A stretch of DNA of 32,717 nucleotides, taken from an uncultured Bacteroidia bacterium. Lineage in GTDB: Bacteria; Bacteroidota; Bacteroidia; NS11-12g; UBA9320. The DNA lies in contig CAJQIC010000036.1 in NCBI GenBank assembly GCA_905478335.1, positions 1 through 32,717 on the forward strand, in the 5' to 3' direction. A model generated the notes under the pieces. It was not told the origin of the DNA. It was given only the letters and a program-made list of their open reading frames with translations, and searched no databases. Position 1 is the first letter of the stretch. Every line of letters starts with the position of its first letter. Shown in pieces: positions 499 to 10,023 of the stretch. Position numbers and translations under genes: made by a program.

Positions 499-1581
499 TT
501 ACAGCTCTCTCGCTGACTTTTTATAGGTTTTTGGAGCAGGATCACCTGGCTTAAATTGGAAGCAATAACTCGCATAAATTTCATGTGTTCCGTTTGAAAC
601 GGATTGAATTTTACTCGCTGTGATGTCATAGCTATATCCAAATTGCATTGGACCATTTACATAACCCAATAATAAGGTGATTGCATCAATTGTACCCCAT
701 TGTCTGTAACCTATTCCACCTCTATAGGTTTGATTATTCAAAATCGTAACGTTCAAATCAATTTGAGGTTTAGAATTGTACTTTACCAAAACAGCAGGTT
801 CAAGTACGTTTGCTCCTGACCCTAAAGGCACGTTAGCTCCAGTATGTACAAAAATGTGTTGATCAAGCTCATACAAGTTACCAGACGTCCCACTTGTAGA
901 CAAATCGTAGGTAGAGCCGTTTAAGTGTGAGACAGATGCTCCAATATAGAAGTCTTCAATACTACTGCCCAATCTGTTTTGTTTATAAAAAACACCAAAG
1001 CCCAAGTCAAGCTTAGAATCACTGATGTTTCCACTTCCACCGCCAGCTGGTATTCTTGGATCTCCTGGATCTCTAGGTCTCCATTTAGGATCTATATAAC
1101 CAAATTGTGTAAAACCGACTTCAACACCAATAGATAACCTTGCAAAATTCCCTTGAATAGGTAAAAAGTAAGCGCCTTGTGCTTTAAAAGAGGTTGTCTT
1201 CATAAAACCAAGTTGATCATCAAAAATGGATACTCCAGCAGCGGCAATAGGCGTTTGACGATTCTTATTTCCCAAAATCTGACCACCCATATTGAAATTA
1301 TATGTTTGTGGCGCAACGTTTTCAATCAACTCCCCGCCTTCAAGAGGTTCACCCGTAGTACGATCAATCCAAGTTTGATCATCGTAGCCCAACCATTGCC
1401 TGTGCGCTACTGCATTTGCACAGATATAATCGTTCTTTTCTCCAACAGTCGCTGGGTTGTATGCTTGCTTTACAAATTTAAAGTGTGAGTAGTATGGATC
1501 TTGCTGAGCCTGAGCAGAATAAGCTGCAAAAATGAGCGATCCACATATCAAGGTTTGGAGTAAAGTCTTACGCATATTCAT
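499..1581 (-). CDS. porP: PorP/SprF family type IX secretion membrane protein
   Basis: About 360 residues. A Sec signal peptide (MRKTLLQTLICGSLIFAAYSAQA) precedes QQDPYYSHFKFVKQAYNPATVG, the QQDP-Y-S/T-H-...-NPA-G opening that defines the PorP/SprF family. The rest is beta-barrel-like, with alternating polar and hydrophobic strands and late motifs such as GGIGYRQWG and FGYSYDIT. Family members are outer-membrane proteins of the T9SS; some work with the PorKLMN core and others with SprB-like adhesins carrying type B C-terminal domains. Immediate linkage to gldK suggests the core role. An upstream in-frame TTG at 1594-1596 falls inside the proposed promoter -7 box, so the ATG at 1579-1581 (or 1573-1575) is preferred. 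Repeat island 1 lies directly upstream. Confidence 0.85.
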   Translation of the reverse strand: MNMRKTLLQTLICGSLIFAAYSAQAQQDPYYSHFKFVKQAYNPATVGEKNDYICANAVAHRQWLGYDDQTWIDRTTGEPLEGGELIENVAPQTYNFNMGGQILGNKNRQTPIAAAGVSIFDDQLGFMKTTSFKAQGAYFLPIQGNFARLSIGVEVGFTQFGYIDPKWRPRDPGDPRIPAGGGSGNISDSKLDLGFGVFYKQNRLGSSIEDFYIGASVSHLNGSTYDLSTSGTSGNLYELDQHIFVHTGANVPLGSGANVLEPAVLVKYNSKPQIDLNVTILNNQTYRGGIGYRQWGTIDAITLLLGYVNGPMQFGYSYDITASKIQSVSNGTHEIYASYCFQFKPGDPAPKTYKKSAREL

Positions 1582-1593
1582 TCGGTATTGGCA

Positions 1594-1624
1594 CAAATTA
1601 AAGTTAAAGTAACCTATAAATCAA
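1594..1624 (-). promoter_or_regulatory. Candidate promoter of porP
   Basis: On the minus strand TTG (1622-1624), 20 nt and TTAATTTG (1594-1601) match the Bacteroidota TTG / TAnnTTTG pattern with one mismatch. The position would start transcription a few bases before the ATG at 1581 and supports that start over the upstream TTG. Confidence 0.4.
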
Positions 1625-1682: not shown

Positions 1683-1850
1683 TGAATGTTTGAAGGATTG
1701 AAGGATTGAAGGATTGAATGTCTGAATGTTTGAATGTCAGAATGCAATGAGTGAATGAGGAATGAGTGAATGACTGAAGCAAGGAATGTCTGAATGATTG
1801 AAGGATTGAAGGATTGAAGGCCTGAATGTCTGAATGCAATGAGTGAATGA
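1683..1850. repeat. Repeat island 1: degenerate 8-nt tandem array
   Basis: The plus strand reads as successive octamers of the forms TGAAGGAT, TGAATGTC, TGAATGTT and TGAATGAG/TGAGTGAA, with a few register slips. Every unit carries a TGA, so all three plus frames are closed, while all minus frames stay open and would give the same 8-residue periodic peptide. No coding gene is credible here. The array fills most of the 1597-1918 gap between the TonB receptor stop and the porP start. Confidence 0.9.
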
Positions 1851-1852
1851 GC

Positions 1853-1887
1853 TATCAATTTTCAACTATCAATTCTCAGCTATCAAT
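1853..1887. repeat. Repeat island 1: 7-nt tandem array
   Basis: Five consecutive heptamers: TATCAAT, TTTCAAC, TATCAAT, TCTCAGC, TATCAAT. They directly follow the 8-nt array and end about 30 nt from the stop codon of the minus-strand TonB receptor gene. The same heptamer family occurs at 9334-9389 in the same relative position. Confidence 0.88.
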
Positions 1888-1918
1888 TCTGTGGGTATAG
1901 ATGCCCTAAAAGCAAACG

Positions 1919-4498
1919 CTAAAATCTCCCGATTAGCTTTAGATTTAGCCTTCTCCCTGTTAGATAGTTGGGTACCCCGTACAAATTATTGTTTAAATCC
2001 TTTACCCAAAAATATGAGGCCACGTTGTTGACCTGTAGGATGTTAAAGACTTCAACACTCGCCCATAGGGATTGGAATGGTCCGCCTGTTTTTGATGCTC
2101 CGGTAAACTTGGCAATTTCCTTGCTAAAGCCAATATCTACACGTCGGTAGGCTGGTAAGTTATAGGTTTCGTTGTATCTGAACGGCCCATTGAAATAGTA
2201 CGGCATCTTAGAACCAATCACGAGGTTCAGTTGCATTTTAAACGTTGTATCGGTTGGCAACTCATCTTGAAACAAGATTGAAAAATTGACCCGTTGATCG
2301 GTTGGTCTTTTTATAAAACCAGTTTCCTGACTCAAACCATTTTCATCCAGATAGCTAATATTTTCTTTCGTAGACAACAACGACAAATTAATCCATGACT
2401 CTAGTCCTGCAATAAACTCTCCATTTACCCTTGTATCAAATCCCATGGCGTACCCCTCACTGGAGTTCACAGCGTCGTACCTTAGTTTCACATTGTTAAT
2501 GGTATACGGCACAAGGTTTGTCATATGCTTATAATACACCTCATTAATCAACCTAAATGGTCTATTCCAAGCCGTGAACAATATGTCACTACCAATTACA
2601 AAATGGACAGATTCCTGAGCTTGAAGCTGCTTGTTCAACTGCCCTCTGCTATCCCTTAATTCTCGGTAAAACGGTGGTTGTCCGTAAGCACCAAAAGCAG
2701 CCGTAATAATCCAATCTTTTTTCTTAAGCGAATCGTATATCGATCTAGCACGGCGGTAATCTAACCCAACAGTGTCGATCAAAGACATTTCATAGAAACG
2801 TTGATTGATGTTAGACTTAAGTACATCATTGTGTTTTTTATTCGGTTCAATCGAGAATTGAAGCCTTGGTGATATTAGTGTTTGATTATTTAAACTCCAG
2901 TAATGCGAGCGCACCCCAATATTCAATCTTACATCACGTTTTTTATTCAAGAGAATATTGTCTTGAACGTAGCTTAACAATCTTCTGCTATTTAGCTGGT
3001 TGGTCGCGTTAATAAAGTCATCTAACCGGATTTCGTTTTGAGGGTGTTGGTTTGCGTTCAATCTGTAACCAGAGGAATCATTATAATTCCACTCTCGCAA
3101 ACCATCAATGATGGCCTCGGTTTGATGCTTCACACCTACCTCAATTCTGTGTCTTCCTCTTTTAATGCGGGTTAACGCCTTTATGCTCGAAACATCGATG
3201 CTTAATTCATTGCGGGCATGATTGATAAAATATCCAAACCCCAACACTGATTTCGCTTCAGCAAAATTGTCTGATCCAAGGTTGTTTTCCAGCTCCTCTA
3301 ATCTATACGCGCCTTCAATAGTAAAATGTTCGCGCTCTGAACTATTATAATTGCTTGCGATTACTTTAAATAAGGTTGAGTCATTAACTTTATAATCAAC
3401 TGTTGCGGCATTCAACCATGTTTGGTAGTCGATGCGTTCTGCGCCTCCAAACCCGACAAATAAACGAACTGCTTGCTGCACGGTACCAAAGTTTGTTTCT
3501 CGACTTTGGGGTTCGACTAGGTATCTATTATTCGCATAAGTAGAATACCAGCTTAGCTTGAGTTTTGAGCTTGCCTTGTAAGTCATTAAGGTTTGAAAAT
3601 CAACAAATTGCGGCCTGTAATCACCAGACACATCCAAGGAACCTAAAATATATTGCAAGGTTCTGTACCGTGCACCAACGACATAGGTGAATCGATCTCT
3701 TTTCTTCCCGACGTCCAAACGATCTTGAACGTGAACACTGGCACCAAGCAAACTCATCTCTACACTACCAGAAAAACTCGTAGGCTTGTTGTATTCCACG
3801 TCTAAAACTGACGACAATTTATCTCCGTACTTTGCTGCGAATCCACCAGACGAAAAACTAACGTTGTTTGTCATGTACGGATTAATAAAGCTCAAACCTT
3901 CCTGTTGGCCGCTCCTTGCTAAAAAAGGTCGGTATACCTCAATATCATTTATATAGATAAGGTTCTCGTCGAAGTTTCCGCCTCTTACATTATACGATGT
4001 GCTCAGCTCGCTTCGTTTCCTAACACCAAGAAACACTTTAGCCAAACCATCTTCAATCTGCATTTGCGGGAATTGTACAAGATCCTTTGGTTGCACCTCA
4101 ATGACGTCGATCTCGATGGAAGGTTTTGTTTTATCAGGAGGCGTTACATCGGTTGGATTTAGGATATAACTCGATAATTGGAAGTTTAATTCAATGACCG
4201 AATTCGGTTTTGGTTTATTAATTCTTTTACTAACCGATTTTGAAAAATATCTTACTTCAATTCTGTGATTTTCGTTAGACGCTAAGGCTACCGTATATCG
4301 GCCTTTTTTATCCGTTTTAACAACGGGTAAACCATTTACATAAACCGGATAATCCCTTAAAAGGCTGTCTTCATAATCAGTTACTAGGCCAGTAACCGTT
4401 GCTACCTTGCTCTGCCCATAAACGTGCACGGCACTGCATAGGAAAATACAGCATAGCTGGATCAGGTAAATCGATATGCGGCTTGCGGTTTTAACCAA
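1919..4498 (-). CDS. TonB-dependent outer-membrane receptor
   Basis: 859 residues. A signal peptide (hydrophobic IYLIQLCCIFLCSAV, cleavage near YGQS) is followed by a carboxypeptidase-regulatory-like beta-sandwich domain (about residues 33-110). Then come a TonB plug domain (about 130-235, with YNVRGGNFDENLIYINDIEV and SSGGFAAKYGDKLSSVLDV) and a long beta-barrel ending in RLNLKLIGRF with a terminal Phe, as expected for an outer-membrane barrel. It should import a ligand using TonB energy; the substrate cannot be read from sequence, and no SusD partner is adjacent. The only available start is TTG at 4496-4498, because an in-frame TAA lies four codons upstream and no ATG is near. That start overlaps the end of rpe by 8 nt, implying translational coupling. 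Last gene of the recF operon; repeat island 1 begins downstream. Confidence 0.88.
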   Translation of the reverse strand: MVKTASRISIYLIQLCCIFLCSAVHVYGQSKVATVTGLVTDYEDSLLRDYPVYVNGLPVVKTDKKGRYTVALASNENHRIEVRYFSKSVSKRINKPKPNSVIELNFQLSSYILNPTDVTPPDKTKPSIEIDVIEVQPKDLVQFPQMQIEDGLAKVFLGVRKRSELSTSYNVRGGNFDENLIYINDIEVYRPFLARSGQQEGLSFINPYMTNNVSFSSGGFAAKYGDKLSSVLDVEYNKPTSFSGSVEMSLLGASVHVQDRLDVGKKRDRFTYVVGARYRTLQYILGSLDVSGDYRPQFVDFQTLMTYKASSKLKLSWYSTYANNRYLVEPQSRETNFGTVQQAVRLFVGFGGAERIDYQTWLNAATVDYKVNDSTLFKVIASNYNSSEREHFTIEGAYRLEELENNLGSDNFAEAKSVLGFGYFINHARNELSIDVSSIKALTRIKRGRHRIEVGVKHQTEAIIDGLREWNYNDSSGYRLNANQHPQNEIRLDDFINATNQLNSRRLLSYVQDNILLNKKRDVRLNIGVRSHYWSLNNQTLISPRLQFSIEPNKKHNDVLKSNINQRFYEMSLIDTVGLDYRRARSIYDSLKKKDWIITAAFGAYGQPPFYRELRDSRGQLNKQLQAQESVHFVIGSDILFTAWNRPFRLINEVYYKHMTNLVPYTINNVKLRYDAVNSSEGYAMGFDTRVNGEFIAGLESWINLSLLSTKENISYLDENGLSQETGFIKRPTDQRVNFSILFQDELPTDTTFKMQLNLVIGSKMPYYFNGPFRYNETYNLPAYRRVDIGFSKEIAKFTGASKTGGPFQSLWASVEVFNILQVNNVASYFWVKDLNNNLYGVPNYLTGRRLNLKLIGRF

Positions 4499-8338: not shown

Positions 8339-8821
8339 ATGTCTTCTAAAGACAAAAACTTATCTGAATTTTCAGGCAAAATTCCTATACTACCGAACGC
8401 AAAGATTGGTATTGTCGTTTCTGAGTGGAACGAAGCCGTAACAGGTTCCTTATTATCTGGAGCGCTTAAAGTACTTGCAGAAGCTGGAATACCTGATTCA
8501 CACATACGAACTGTAAACGTTCCTGGTAGTTTTGAGTTGATTTTAGGAAGTCAGAAACTTGCTCAAATTGAGGACATAGACGCGGTTATATCAATTGGCT
8601 GTGTCATTCAAGGTGAAACAAGACATTTCGATTTCATTTGCCAAGCCGTGGCTACGGGTATAAGTGATGTTAATTTGAAGTTTGACAAACCCGTAATCTT
8701 TGGGGTTTTAACCACAGACAATCAACAACAAGCTTTAGATCGTGCAGGTGGAAAGCACGGCAACAAAGGTGAAGAAGCTGCGTATACGGCTGTAAGAATG
8801 ATTGAAGATCTGAAAGATTGA
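8339..8821 (+). CDS. ribH: 6,7-dimethyl-8-ribityllumazine synthase
   Basis: 160 residues, normal length. It condenses 5-amino-6-ribitylaminouracil with 3,4-dihydroxy-2-butanone 4-phosphate in riboflavin biosynthesis and usually assembles as pentamers or icosahedral shells. Visible signatures are VSEWN, VPGSFE, IGCVIQGETRHFDFI with the catalytic His96, FGVLTTDNQQQALDRAGGK with Arg135 for phosphate binding, and HGNKGEEAA. The start ATG lies 5 nt after the TPR gene. The last 24 nt (8798-8821), including the TGA stop, fall exactly into the 8-nt register of the repeat array that follows, so the tail MIEDLKD and the stop are part of the repeat pattern. The family length and fold are nevertheless intact. 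Confidence 0.96.
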   Translation: MSSKDKNLSEFSGKIPILPNAKIGIVVSEWNEAVTGSLLSGALKVLAEAGIPDSHIRTVNVPGSFELILGSQKLAQIEDIDAVISIGCVIQGETRHFDFICQAVATGISDVNLKFDKPVIFGVLTTDNQQQALDRAGGKHGNKGEEAAYTAVRMIEDLKD

Positions 8822-8893
8822 AGGATTGATGGACTGAAGGATTGAATGTCTGAAGGATTGAATGTCTGAAGGACTGAAGGATTGAAGGGGTCA
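8798..8893. repeat. Repeat island 2: first 8-nt array, overlapping the ribH 3' end
   Basis: Twelve octamers in unbroken register: ATGATTGA, AGATCTGA, AAGATTGA (these three inside ribH), then AGGATTGA, TGGACTGA, AGGATTGA, ATGTCTGA, AGGATTGA, ATGTCTGA, AGGACTGA, AGGATTGA, AGGGGTCA. The unit consensus is A-A/T-G-n-n-Y-T-G-A shortened to eight bases. Same family as 1683-1850. Confidence 0.9.
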
Positions 8894-8912
8894 ATATCAA
8901 CGGCAGTATATC

Positions 8913-8954
8913 TAGTCCTGAGTCTTCCGTCTTTAGTCTTTAGTCTATATTCTT
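8913..8954. repeat. TAGTCTT-type 7-nt array, copy 1
   Basis: Six heptamers in register: TAGTCCT, GAGTCTT, CCGTCTT, TAGTCTT, TAGTCTA, TATTCTT. This family is distinct from the TCAAY heptamers at 1853 and 9334. Confidence 0.85.
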
Positions 8955-9000
8955 GACAAAAACCAATTCCTAGAGGCTAGTTCCTTACTCGTACTATTAG

Positions 9001-9098
9001 AAGGATTGAATGAGTGAAGGATTGAAGGATTGAAGGATTGAATGAGTCAAGGATTGAATGTCTGAAGGTCTGAATGTCTGAATGACTTAAGGATTGAA
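9001..9098. repeat. Repeat island 2: second 8-nt array
   Basis: Octamers in register: AAGGATTG, AATGAGTG, AAGGATTG three times, AATGAGTC, AAGGATTG, AATGTCTG, AAGGTCTG, AATGTCTG, AATGACTT, AAGGATTG. It lies within copy 1 of the 212-bp duplication and is repeated at 9213. Confidence 0.9.
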
Positions 9099-9310
9099 GG
9101 GGTCAATATCAACGGCAGTATATCTAGTCCTGAGTCTTCCGTCTTTAGTCTTTAGTCTATATTCTTGACAAAAACCAATTCCTATAGGCTAGTTCCTTAC
9201 TCGTACTATTAGAAGGATTGAATGAGTGAAGGATTGAAGGATTGAAGGATTGAATGAGTCAAGGATTGAATGTCTGAAGGTCTGAATGTCTGAATGACTT
9301 AAGGATTGAA
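9089..9310. repeat. 212-bp tandem duplication, copy 2
   Basis: Second copy of 8877-9098, with a single substitution at 9185. The two copies share a 10-bp overlap (9089-9098) because the duplication joint lies in the octamer repeat, as expected for slippage or unequal recombination between octamers. Confidence 0.95.
9125..9166. repeat. TAGTCTT-type 7-nt array, copy 2
   Basis: Exact second copy of the six-heptamer array at 8913-8954, carried by the 212-bp duplication. Confidence 0.85.
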
Positions 9311-9328
9311 TGAGTGAATGAGTGAATG
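9213..9328. repeat. Repeat island 2: third 8-nt array
   Basis: Copy of the 9001 array, extended at its right end by AATGAGTG, AATGAGTG and AATGTTCA. It passes directly into the heptamer array at 9334. Confidence 0.88.
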
Positions 9329-9333
9329 TTCAT

Positions 9334-9389
9334 TTTCAACTTTCAATTTTCAACTCTCAATTATCAACTCTCAATTATCAGCTCTCAGC
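9334..9389. repeat. Repeat island 2: terminal 7-nt array
   Basis: Eight perfect-register heptamers: TTTCAAC, TTTCAAT, TTTCAAC, TCTCAAT, TATCAAC, TCTCAAT, TATCAGC, TCTCAGC. It ends 19 nt before the stop codon of the minus-strand deoxynucleoside kinase gene. It mirrors 1853-1887 in sequence family, order after the octamers, and position. Confidence 0.9.
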
Positions 9390-9408
9390 TCTCCCGCTTC
9401 TTGTAAAT

Positions 9409-10023
9409 TTAAAACAGCCCGTGAACCTCAGCATCGATCTTGCTGATAATTTTACCTAGGTCTTCCTGACTTGTTTCAAACTCTAAATCATCTACGTCGA
9501 TGATTAGCAATTTTCCGTCTGTGTAGGTAGATATCCATGCCTCATACCGCTCATTTAAACGTTTAAGGTAGTCGAGTCGGATAGAATCTTCATATTCTCT
9601 TCCTCTTTTTTGGATTCGATTCACCAACGCTGAAATGCTGGCTCGTAGATAAATCATTAAGTCTGGTGGTTCAAGCATCGACTTAATACTTGAGAATAAA
9701 GCTTGATAGGTATCAAAATCACGTGTACTCATCAAACCCATTGCATGAAGGTTGGGTGCAAAAATGTATGCGTCTTCATAAATTGTTCGGTCTTGGATAA
9801 CCGTTTCTCCGCGTGAACGGATATTTTGTACACCGTTGAATCTAGTATTTAGAAAAAATACCTGAAGATTAAATGACCAACGTTGCATATCTTCATAAAA
9901 GTCAGAGATATACGGATTGTTATCTAACGATTCAAAATGTGGTTCCCAGTTGTAATGTTTGGCAAGTAAATTTGTTAACGTTGACTTTCCTGCTCCGATG
10001 TTTCCGGCTATTGCAATGTGCAT
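9409..10023 (-). CDS. Deoxynucleoside kinase family protein
   Basis: 204 residues. P-loop GNIGAGKS at residues 7-14, the DRTIYED motif (Asp78-Arg79, the DRS-type motif of the deoxynucleoside kinase/thymidine kinase 2-like family) and a basic LID RIQKRGREYE. These place it with the dCK/dGK/dNK-type kinases, which phosphorylate deoxynucleosides for salvage in the cytosol. Base specificity (deoxyadenosine, deoxyguanosine or deoxycytidine) is not readable. The gene lies 51 nt after trpS and appears to have its own promoter overlapping the trpS 3' end. Downstream, 12 nt beyond its stop codon, repeat island 2 begins. Confidence 0.9.
   Translation of the reverse strand: MHIAIAGNIGAGKSTLTNLLAKHYNWEPHFESLDNNPYISDFYEDMQRWSFNLQVFFLNTRFNGVQNIRSRGETVIQDRTIYEDAYIFAPNLHAMGLMSTRDFDTYQALFSSIKSMLEPPDLMIYLRASISALVNRIQKRGREYEDSIRLDYLKRLNERYEAWISTYTDGKLLIIDVDDLEFETSQEDLGKIISKIDAEVHGLF

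Follow-up and report, generated by a model that had tools for sequence, protein, structure and literature searches.

The window, by which we mean the whole 32,717-nt stretch of DNA analysed here, is contig 36 of a Bacteroidia assembly (G000) that totals 2.78 Mb in 74 contigs. Close to its start it carries two genes on the minus strand, one for a PorP/SprF type IX secretion protein (499..1596; Pfam PF11751, E 2.2e-45) and one for a TonB-dependent receptor with a plug domain (1919..4498; PF07715, E 3.5e-7), separated by an intergenic gap of 322 bases. Because both genes are on the minus strand, the repeat island inside this gap, at 1683-1890, follows the receptor gene and precedes porP in the direction of transcription.

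Two arrays with different periods and opposite strands

The island opens with an array of octamers (O; 1683..1851, plus strand) whose units read TGAA[GT]GNN, with a degenerate TGAG/TGAC middle, and which is evident from TRF, from shuffles and from chains of units. TRF reports a period of 8 at 1683-1836 with 19.8 copies and 76% matches, in keeping with the earlier note, which had counted about twenty octamers; strict TGAA[GT]GNN units form runs of seven and six at 1683-1738 and 1791-1838. Self-match at lag 8 over 1683-1846 reaches 0.70, compared to 0.30 ± 0.04 (maximum 0.42) in 2000 dinucleotide shuffles. The plus strand of the array is G-rich and C-poor (A59 C10 G54 T46).

The octamers are followed by an array of heptamers (H; 1852..1890, minus strand), for which TRF gives a period of 7/14 and whose units read RYTGANA on the minus strand, that is, TNTCARY on the plus strand. 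A run of five units, the number originally noted, occupies 1853-1887. Self-match is 0.63 at lag 7 (shuffle maximum 0.60) and 0.91 at lag 14, the latter being cleanest because two variants alternate. The array lies 32 nt past the stop codon of the receptor gene, with TGA on the receptor's coding strand. The description of the island as two arrays that differ in period and carry their TGA cores on opposite strands, the octamers on plus and the heptamers on minus, is thereby borne out; that the gap consists almost entirely of repeats is too generous as regards extent, the repeats being there but covering about 208 of the 322 bases.

Arrays of this kind, with tandem units of 5-11 nt that run on for longer than expected by chance, are what define STRRs or long simple sequence repeats. 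The absence of any likeness to IS, CRISPR or REP layouts, claimed from the sequence at the outset, holds: testing the arrays against CRISPR and REP yielded no spacers and only direct repeats of 7-8 nt. No Rfam family matches the arrays, and a text search of the literature for the octamer and heptamer words returned nothing relevant. A coding role can be set aside, as the periods are not multiples of three and the plus strand has eight stops per frame.

A second island in the window, at 8805-9393, has the same make-up, its three O arrays and T-type heptamers being closed off by an H array. Its first O array (8805..8889, plus) begins within ribH, the stop codon of which (8819-8821) is the first TGA of the array. 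There follow T-type heptamers (TAGTCTT; 8913..8954, C-rich on the plus strand), a second O array (9000..9102, plus) within a 212-nt higher-order repeat, a second copy of the T-type heptamers (9125..9166, plus), both copies being detected by TRF, a third O array (9212..9330, plus; TRF and unit chains) and finally eight H units (9331..9393, minus) that face a convergent deoxynucleoside kinase gene ending at 9409, the coding strand of which is the TGA strand of the array. The array has altered the C-terminus of the ribH product, which reads RMIEDLKD in the window as opposed to RMVEGVII, RMIEL and RMLEL in relatives.

Several dozen islands share the same words

We searched the whole assembly with both arrays as profiles. 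The three-unit octamer pattern matches 103 times and its reversed counterpart never; for the H heptamer pattern, 224 matches compare with 35 for the reversed control. Together with clustering at gene 3' ends, the octamer counts exclude random, independent positions, a possibility that the earlier note had raised. G000 harbours several dozen islands, 34 H-array ends were recorded, and the dispersal of the same words over many intergenic loci is likewise a defining trait of STRRs and long simple sequence repeats. For closer analysis we used 36 stretches around islands along with 12 stretches of 20 kb picked regardless of islands. Note that the former were chosen for their islands, so that comparisons are safe only against unselected stretches or relatives, that the assemblies are of metagenome type, that gene calls and terminator finder are home-made, and that islands are not mutually independent.

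Along with the octamers and heptamers of the first island, three or more further word families occur in these islands, giving at least five in all: O (TGAAGGAT), T (AGTCCTG), H (TATCAAC), C (CTAATTC/CTAGTGG) and U (TCTATNT). Read along the O strand, O comes first and the other families come after it in C-rich orientation. A 35-nt query for the T module, allowing up to nine mismatches, finds 19 copies at 13 loci, mostly with O before and H after, and none in shuffled sequence. Neighbouring O and H arrays are on opposite strands in 26 of 26 pairs across two genomes, pairs that are not independent events because many may share descent, and this order supports the initial judgement that the tract is more than simple low-complexity DNA.

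Across the 306 H units of G000 (TNTCARY), the endings are AC (150), AT (117), GC (39) and GT (0), and the identity of neighbouring units declines little with distance, a point against growth by slippage and conversion. We had entertained the absence of TATCAGT as an RNA-pairing rule and dropped this idea because other Bacteroidia use exactly that unit. Neither of the dominant units, TGAAGGAT and GTTGATA, contains the run of three G that a G-quadruplex calls for.

Other repeats keep company with the islands. A second dispersed repeat of ~370 nt, with copies 80-93% identical, is present in both genomes, often beside H arrays (L075:378-740, L053:2508-2873, L042:6268-6636, L044:13-388, L066:4003-4376, and at L043, L046 and L054); the copies can be read as pseudo-ORFs that start with LIKKRNKKIKTSEFF. 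Within islands (L049, L055, L057, L069), and at G035 ends too, there is a recurrent short element, AAAGAGATTCTTCGCTGCGCTCTGAATGACG, which takes both orientations across species and looks like a widespread dispersed repeat of Bacteroidota. Beside the island at L058:2676-2990 and its orthologue at L075:2960-3580 there are tandem units of ~160-200 nt with the core CTACACATGCGACTTGAACAGG...CCCCTTTCTTTA, two copies at L058 and three in the sister species (L075). Finally, several contigs end in or beside islands (L068:1-127, L069:3361-3487, L057, L059, L056:1-51 and the end of L046), so that islands evidently break the assembly; L068 and L069 have a terminal stretch of 127 nt in common, after which their arrays diverge, as a repeat or a strain variant might.

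Arrays sit at gene 3' ends, G-rich strand in sense

Where an array lies within 40 nt of the 3' end of a gene, as delimited by a codon-based gene caller, the coding strand is the G-rich, TGA-bearing one in every one of 27 cases from G000 and in 9 of the 12 from the sister species G033. The majority of these arrays start no more than 12 nt from the stop codon or overlap it. In G000, island gaps are convergent in 18 of 36 cases, compared to 14 of 108 gaps (of at least 30 nt) in unselected stretches (p = 1e-5), and divergent in only three of 36; convergent gaps in this genome are mostly short (median 19.5 nt). Placement at gene ends in near-constant orientation is a new regularity, the placement rule itself having already been published for the heptamers of Xanthomonas and Nostoc (PMC4692102).

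Words change at the same gene ends in relatives

The earlier note had proposed comparing the porP-receptor gap among relatives, and array presence, absence and length all prove to vary there. G033, of the same genus and with a receptor 93% identical, has a shorter composite of H plus O; G035 (receptor 79%) has other repeats; UBA6063 (receptor 62%) has AGCAATGT octamers; and the gap is free of arrays in G034 and in a more distant relative (L034).

To extend the comparison, orthologues of 28 array-bearing gene ends were located in G033, G034 and G035 with chimeric protein queries. At 65% periodicity, G033 has arrays at 10/26 orthologous ends, G035 at 9/26 and G034 at 2/25; the background, measured in G000, is 4/180 ends. 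The words in G035 and G034 mostly differ (TGAATTAT, TTGGCTA, TAGGAAC, AAGTTG, GAAGTGA), and all 11 orthologous-end arrays of these two genomes have a G-rich sense strand. Of the ten arrays in G033, six have a G-rich sense strand and four a C-rich one; two of these four belong to the convergent gene opposite, and the other two lie in codirectional gaps, beginning 18 and 39 nt beyond the stop codon. These patterns suggest that what is retained at gene ends is strand composition, not sequence. Lengths vary greatly, with one gene pair having a stop-to-stop gap of 911 nt in G000, 21 in G033, 150 in G035 and 989 in G034.

Further afield, four units of the octamer word match in 10 of 395 sampled Bacteroidia genomes, several of these being simple TGAA repeats, and five H heptamers match in 32 of the 395, scattered patchily over 24 genera. 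Judging by these matches, the octamer word is nearly confined to the window's genus and the heptamer word is patchy across Bacteroidia.

Relation to known short repeats

The earlier note had not recognised the layout as a known kind; on this point it has to be corrected, since heptanucleotide long simple repeats and STRRs have been described (PMC4679880, PMC4692102). As PMC4679880 relates them, the long simple sequence repeats of Mrazek (2007; LSSR) and cyanobacterial STRRs have units of 5-11 nt, heptamers being commonest, and a scattered phylogenetic distribution. Our arrays share all three traits; module order, opposed strands and word turnover at fixed gene ends go beyond the descriptions we found.

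Direct TAACTGA repeats, known from Beggiatoaceae, Cyanobacteria and some Bacteroidetes with a patchy phylogeny, lie mostly just upstream of start codons, and in Bacteroidetes form long arrays mixed with other heptamers, the corresponding gaps of close relatives being shorter and repeat-free (PMC4679880). A TAACTGA tandem also reads as ACTGATA, which falls within the RYTGANA pattern, and the patchy phylogeny, long mixed arrays and shorter, repeat-free gaps are common to both; however, the arrays of G000 are at 3' ends, and the TCAGT variant is found in none of 306 H units.

The GGGAATC and GGGGA(T/C)T heptamers of Xanthomonas and Nostoc are intergenic, with downstream copies mostly 0-50 bp from the stop codon and in some cases overlapping it, the G-rich pattern on the coding strand, and positions conserved above controls; each is a single word, usually in four units, that can form G-quadruplexes (PMC4692102). 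The G-rich strand is the coding strand near stop codons here as well (27/27, 9/12 and 11/11), but our arrays lack G runs, draw on five or more word families, an octamer among them, and build composite islands with opposed strands, in convergent gaps, with other words at the same site in relatives.

Why are the arrays where they are?

The observations to be explained are where the arrays lie and how they are oriented, the order of modules, the turnover of words, variation in length, and dispersal. We favour, with moderate confidence, the view that the islands are dispersed short-period satellites of the STRR/LSSR kind that colonised gene 3' ends. Runs of units would lengthen and shorten through replication slippage, and whole modules (O-T-H and so on) would be copied between islands by recombination or gene conversion, as the shared words, near-identical modules and length variation lead us to infer. 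Flanking genes would filter what persists: arrays beside stop codons may survive if their G-rich, stop-rich strand is the coding strand. With a TGA every 7 or 8 nt, periods coprime to 3, each of the three frames meets a stop within 21-24 nt, and overrunning the stop codon would therefore be cheap. Arrays would also be tolerated where little promoter is at risk, above all in convergent gaps, and opposed O and H in one gap would be two gene-end arrays that met and were later duplicated as a unit. Such a filter cannot be complete, since a stop-free, G-rich TTGGCTA array in G035 and GGGAATC in Xanthomonas (PMC4692102) follow the same orientation rule.

There is one further pattern that slippage-grown satellites and a stop-codon filter do not predict. 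Intrinsic terminators occur at 5 of 36 gene ends in convergent gaps with islands as opposed to 14 of 28 ends in those without (gaps of at least 60 nt; p = 0.002), in a comparison that mixes island-chosen and unselected stretches. One scenario, less probable than the satellite view, is that islands are bidirectional transcription-end zones of the Rho type, with selection on strand composition while words drift. Each transcript would first meet a G-rich, stop-filled array that clears it of ribosomes; the partner array would come next and, being C-rich and G-poor on this strand with YC every 7-8 nt, would load Rho. The first 40 nt are indeed G-rich in convergent island gaps (+6.3 vs -0.5), and convergent gaps with islands exceed those without in best 60-nt C-minus-G (11.0 vs 5.9) and in YC count (10.3 vs 6.0), so that past the stop codon there is the kind of tract (C>G, rich in YC, poor in G) that characterises Rho-dependent terminators. 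Rho is encoded in the genome (111.6 bits), and the C-rich tracts resemble Rut sites, which are described as pyrimidine-rich, G-poor and with C>G (PMC12350095). A C-rich tract is, however, an automatic consequence of the partner's sense array, and repeats of this sort also flourish in Cyanobacteria, a group devoid of Rho (PMC13289151). Moreover, the gaps of two of the gene pairs (ribH/dNK and the pair at L060) measure 38 and 10 nt in G034, where they contain no array and no hairpin; along with the short convergent gaps of G000, these make the arrays look added rather than needed. Rather doubtful, in our estimation, is the claim that islands are two-way gene-end elements independent of the word used, in which one gene's G-rich, stop-bearing sense array is the opposite transcript's C-rich Rho-loading tract, strand composition and position are conserved and sequence is not, and hairpin terminators are replaced.

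Could the islands be mobile? A composite element (the O-T-H module) that uses a dedicated enzyme to insert itself at gene ends might explain why module order is kept over 13 loci and why island presence differs between species (the gap of 911 versus 21 nt). We consider this improbable: we saw neither terminal repeats nor target duplications nor a linked gene, and a candidate small gene next to islands (ORFs of 118-140 aa) dissolved into several pseudo-ORFs in the ~370-nt repeat and otherwise unrelated, ordinary genes. The RVT_1 reverse transcriptase domain (PF00078) has no match in the 2.78-Mb assembly, which counts against such an element and against arrays made by a telomerase- or retron-like reverse transcriptase. 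Least probable is a hairpin or other structured RNA in which the O array pairs with the H array: AUUGAA and UUCAAU can pair, and the folds of L050 (z -5.1) and L070 (z -2.5) surpass those of shuffles, but the other ten islands tested on the O-H strand fold no better than dinucleotide shuffles (z -1.0 to +1.6), which rules out a long O-H hairpin for most islands, and no Rfam family matches.

Implications

Annotators should bear in mind that, in genomes of this kind, repeats may be the source of C-termini and contig ends. More broadly, the strand composition of gene ends addresses the question of why repeats of 7-8 nt recur in distant bacteria, and the replacement of words with G-rich sense kept agrees with the Xanthomonas/Nostoc rule for an unrelated word. 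If composition is retained and sequence is not, then the stop-codon filter, Rho loading and R-loops become directly testable as competing ideas.
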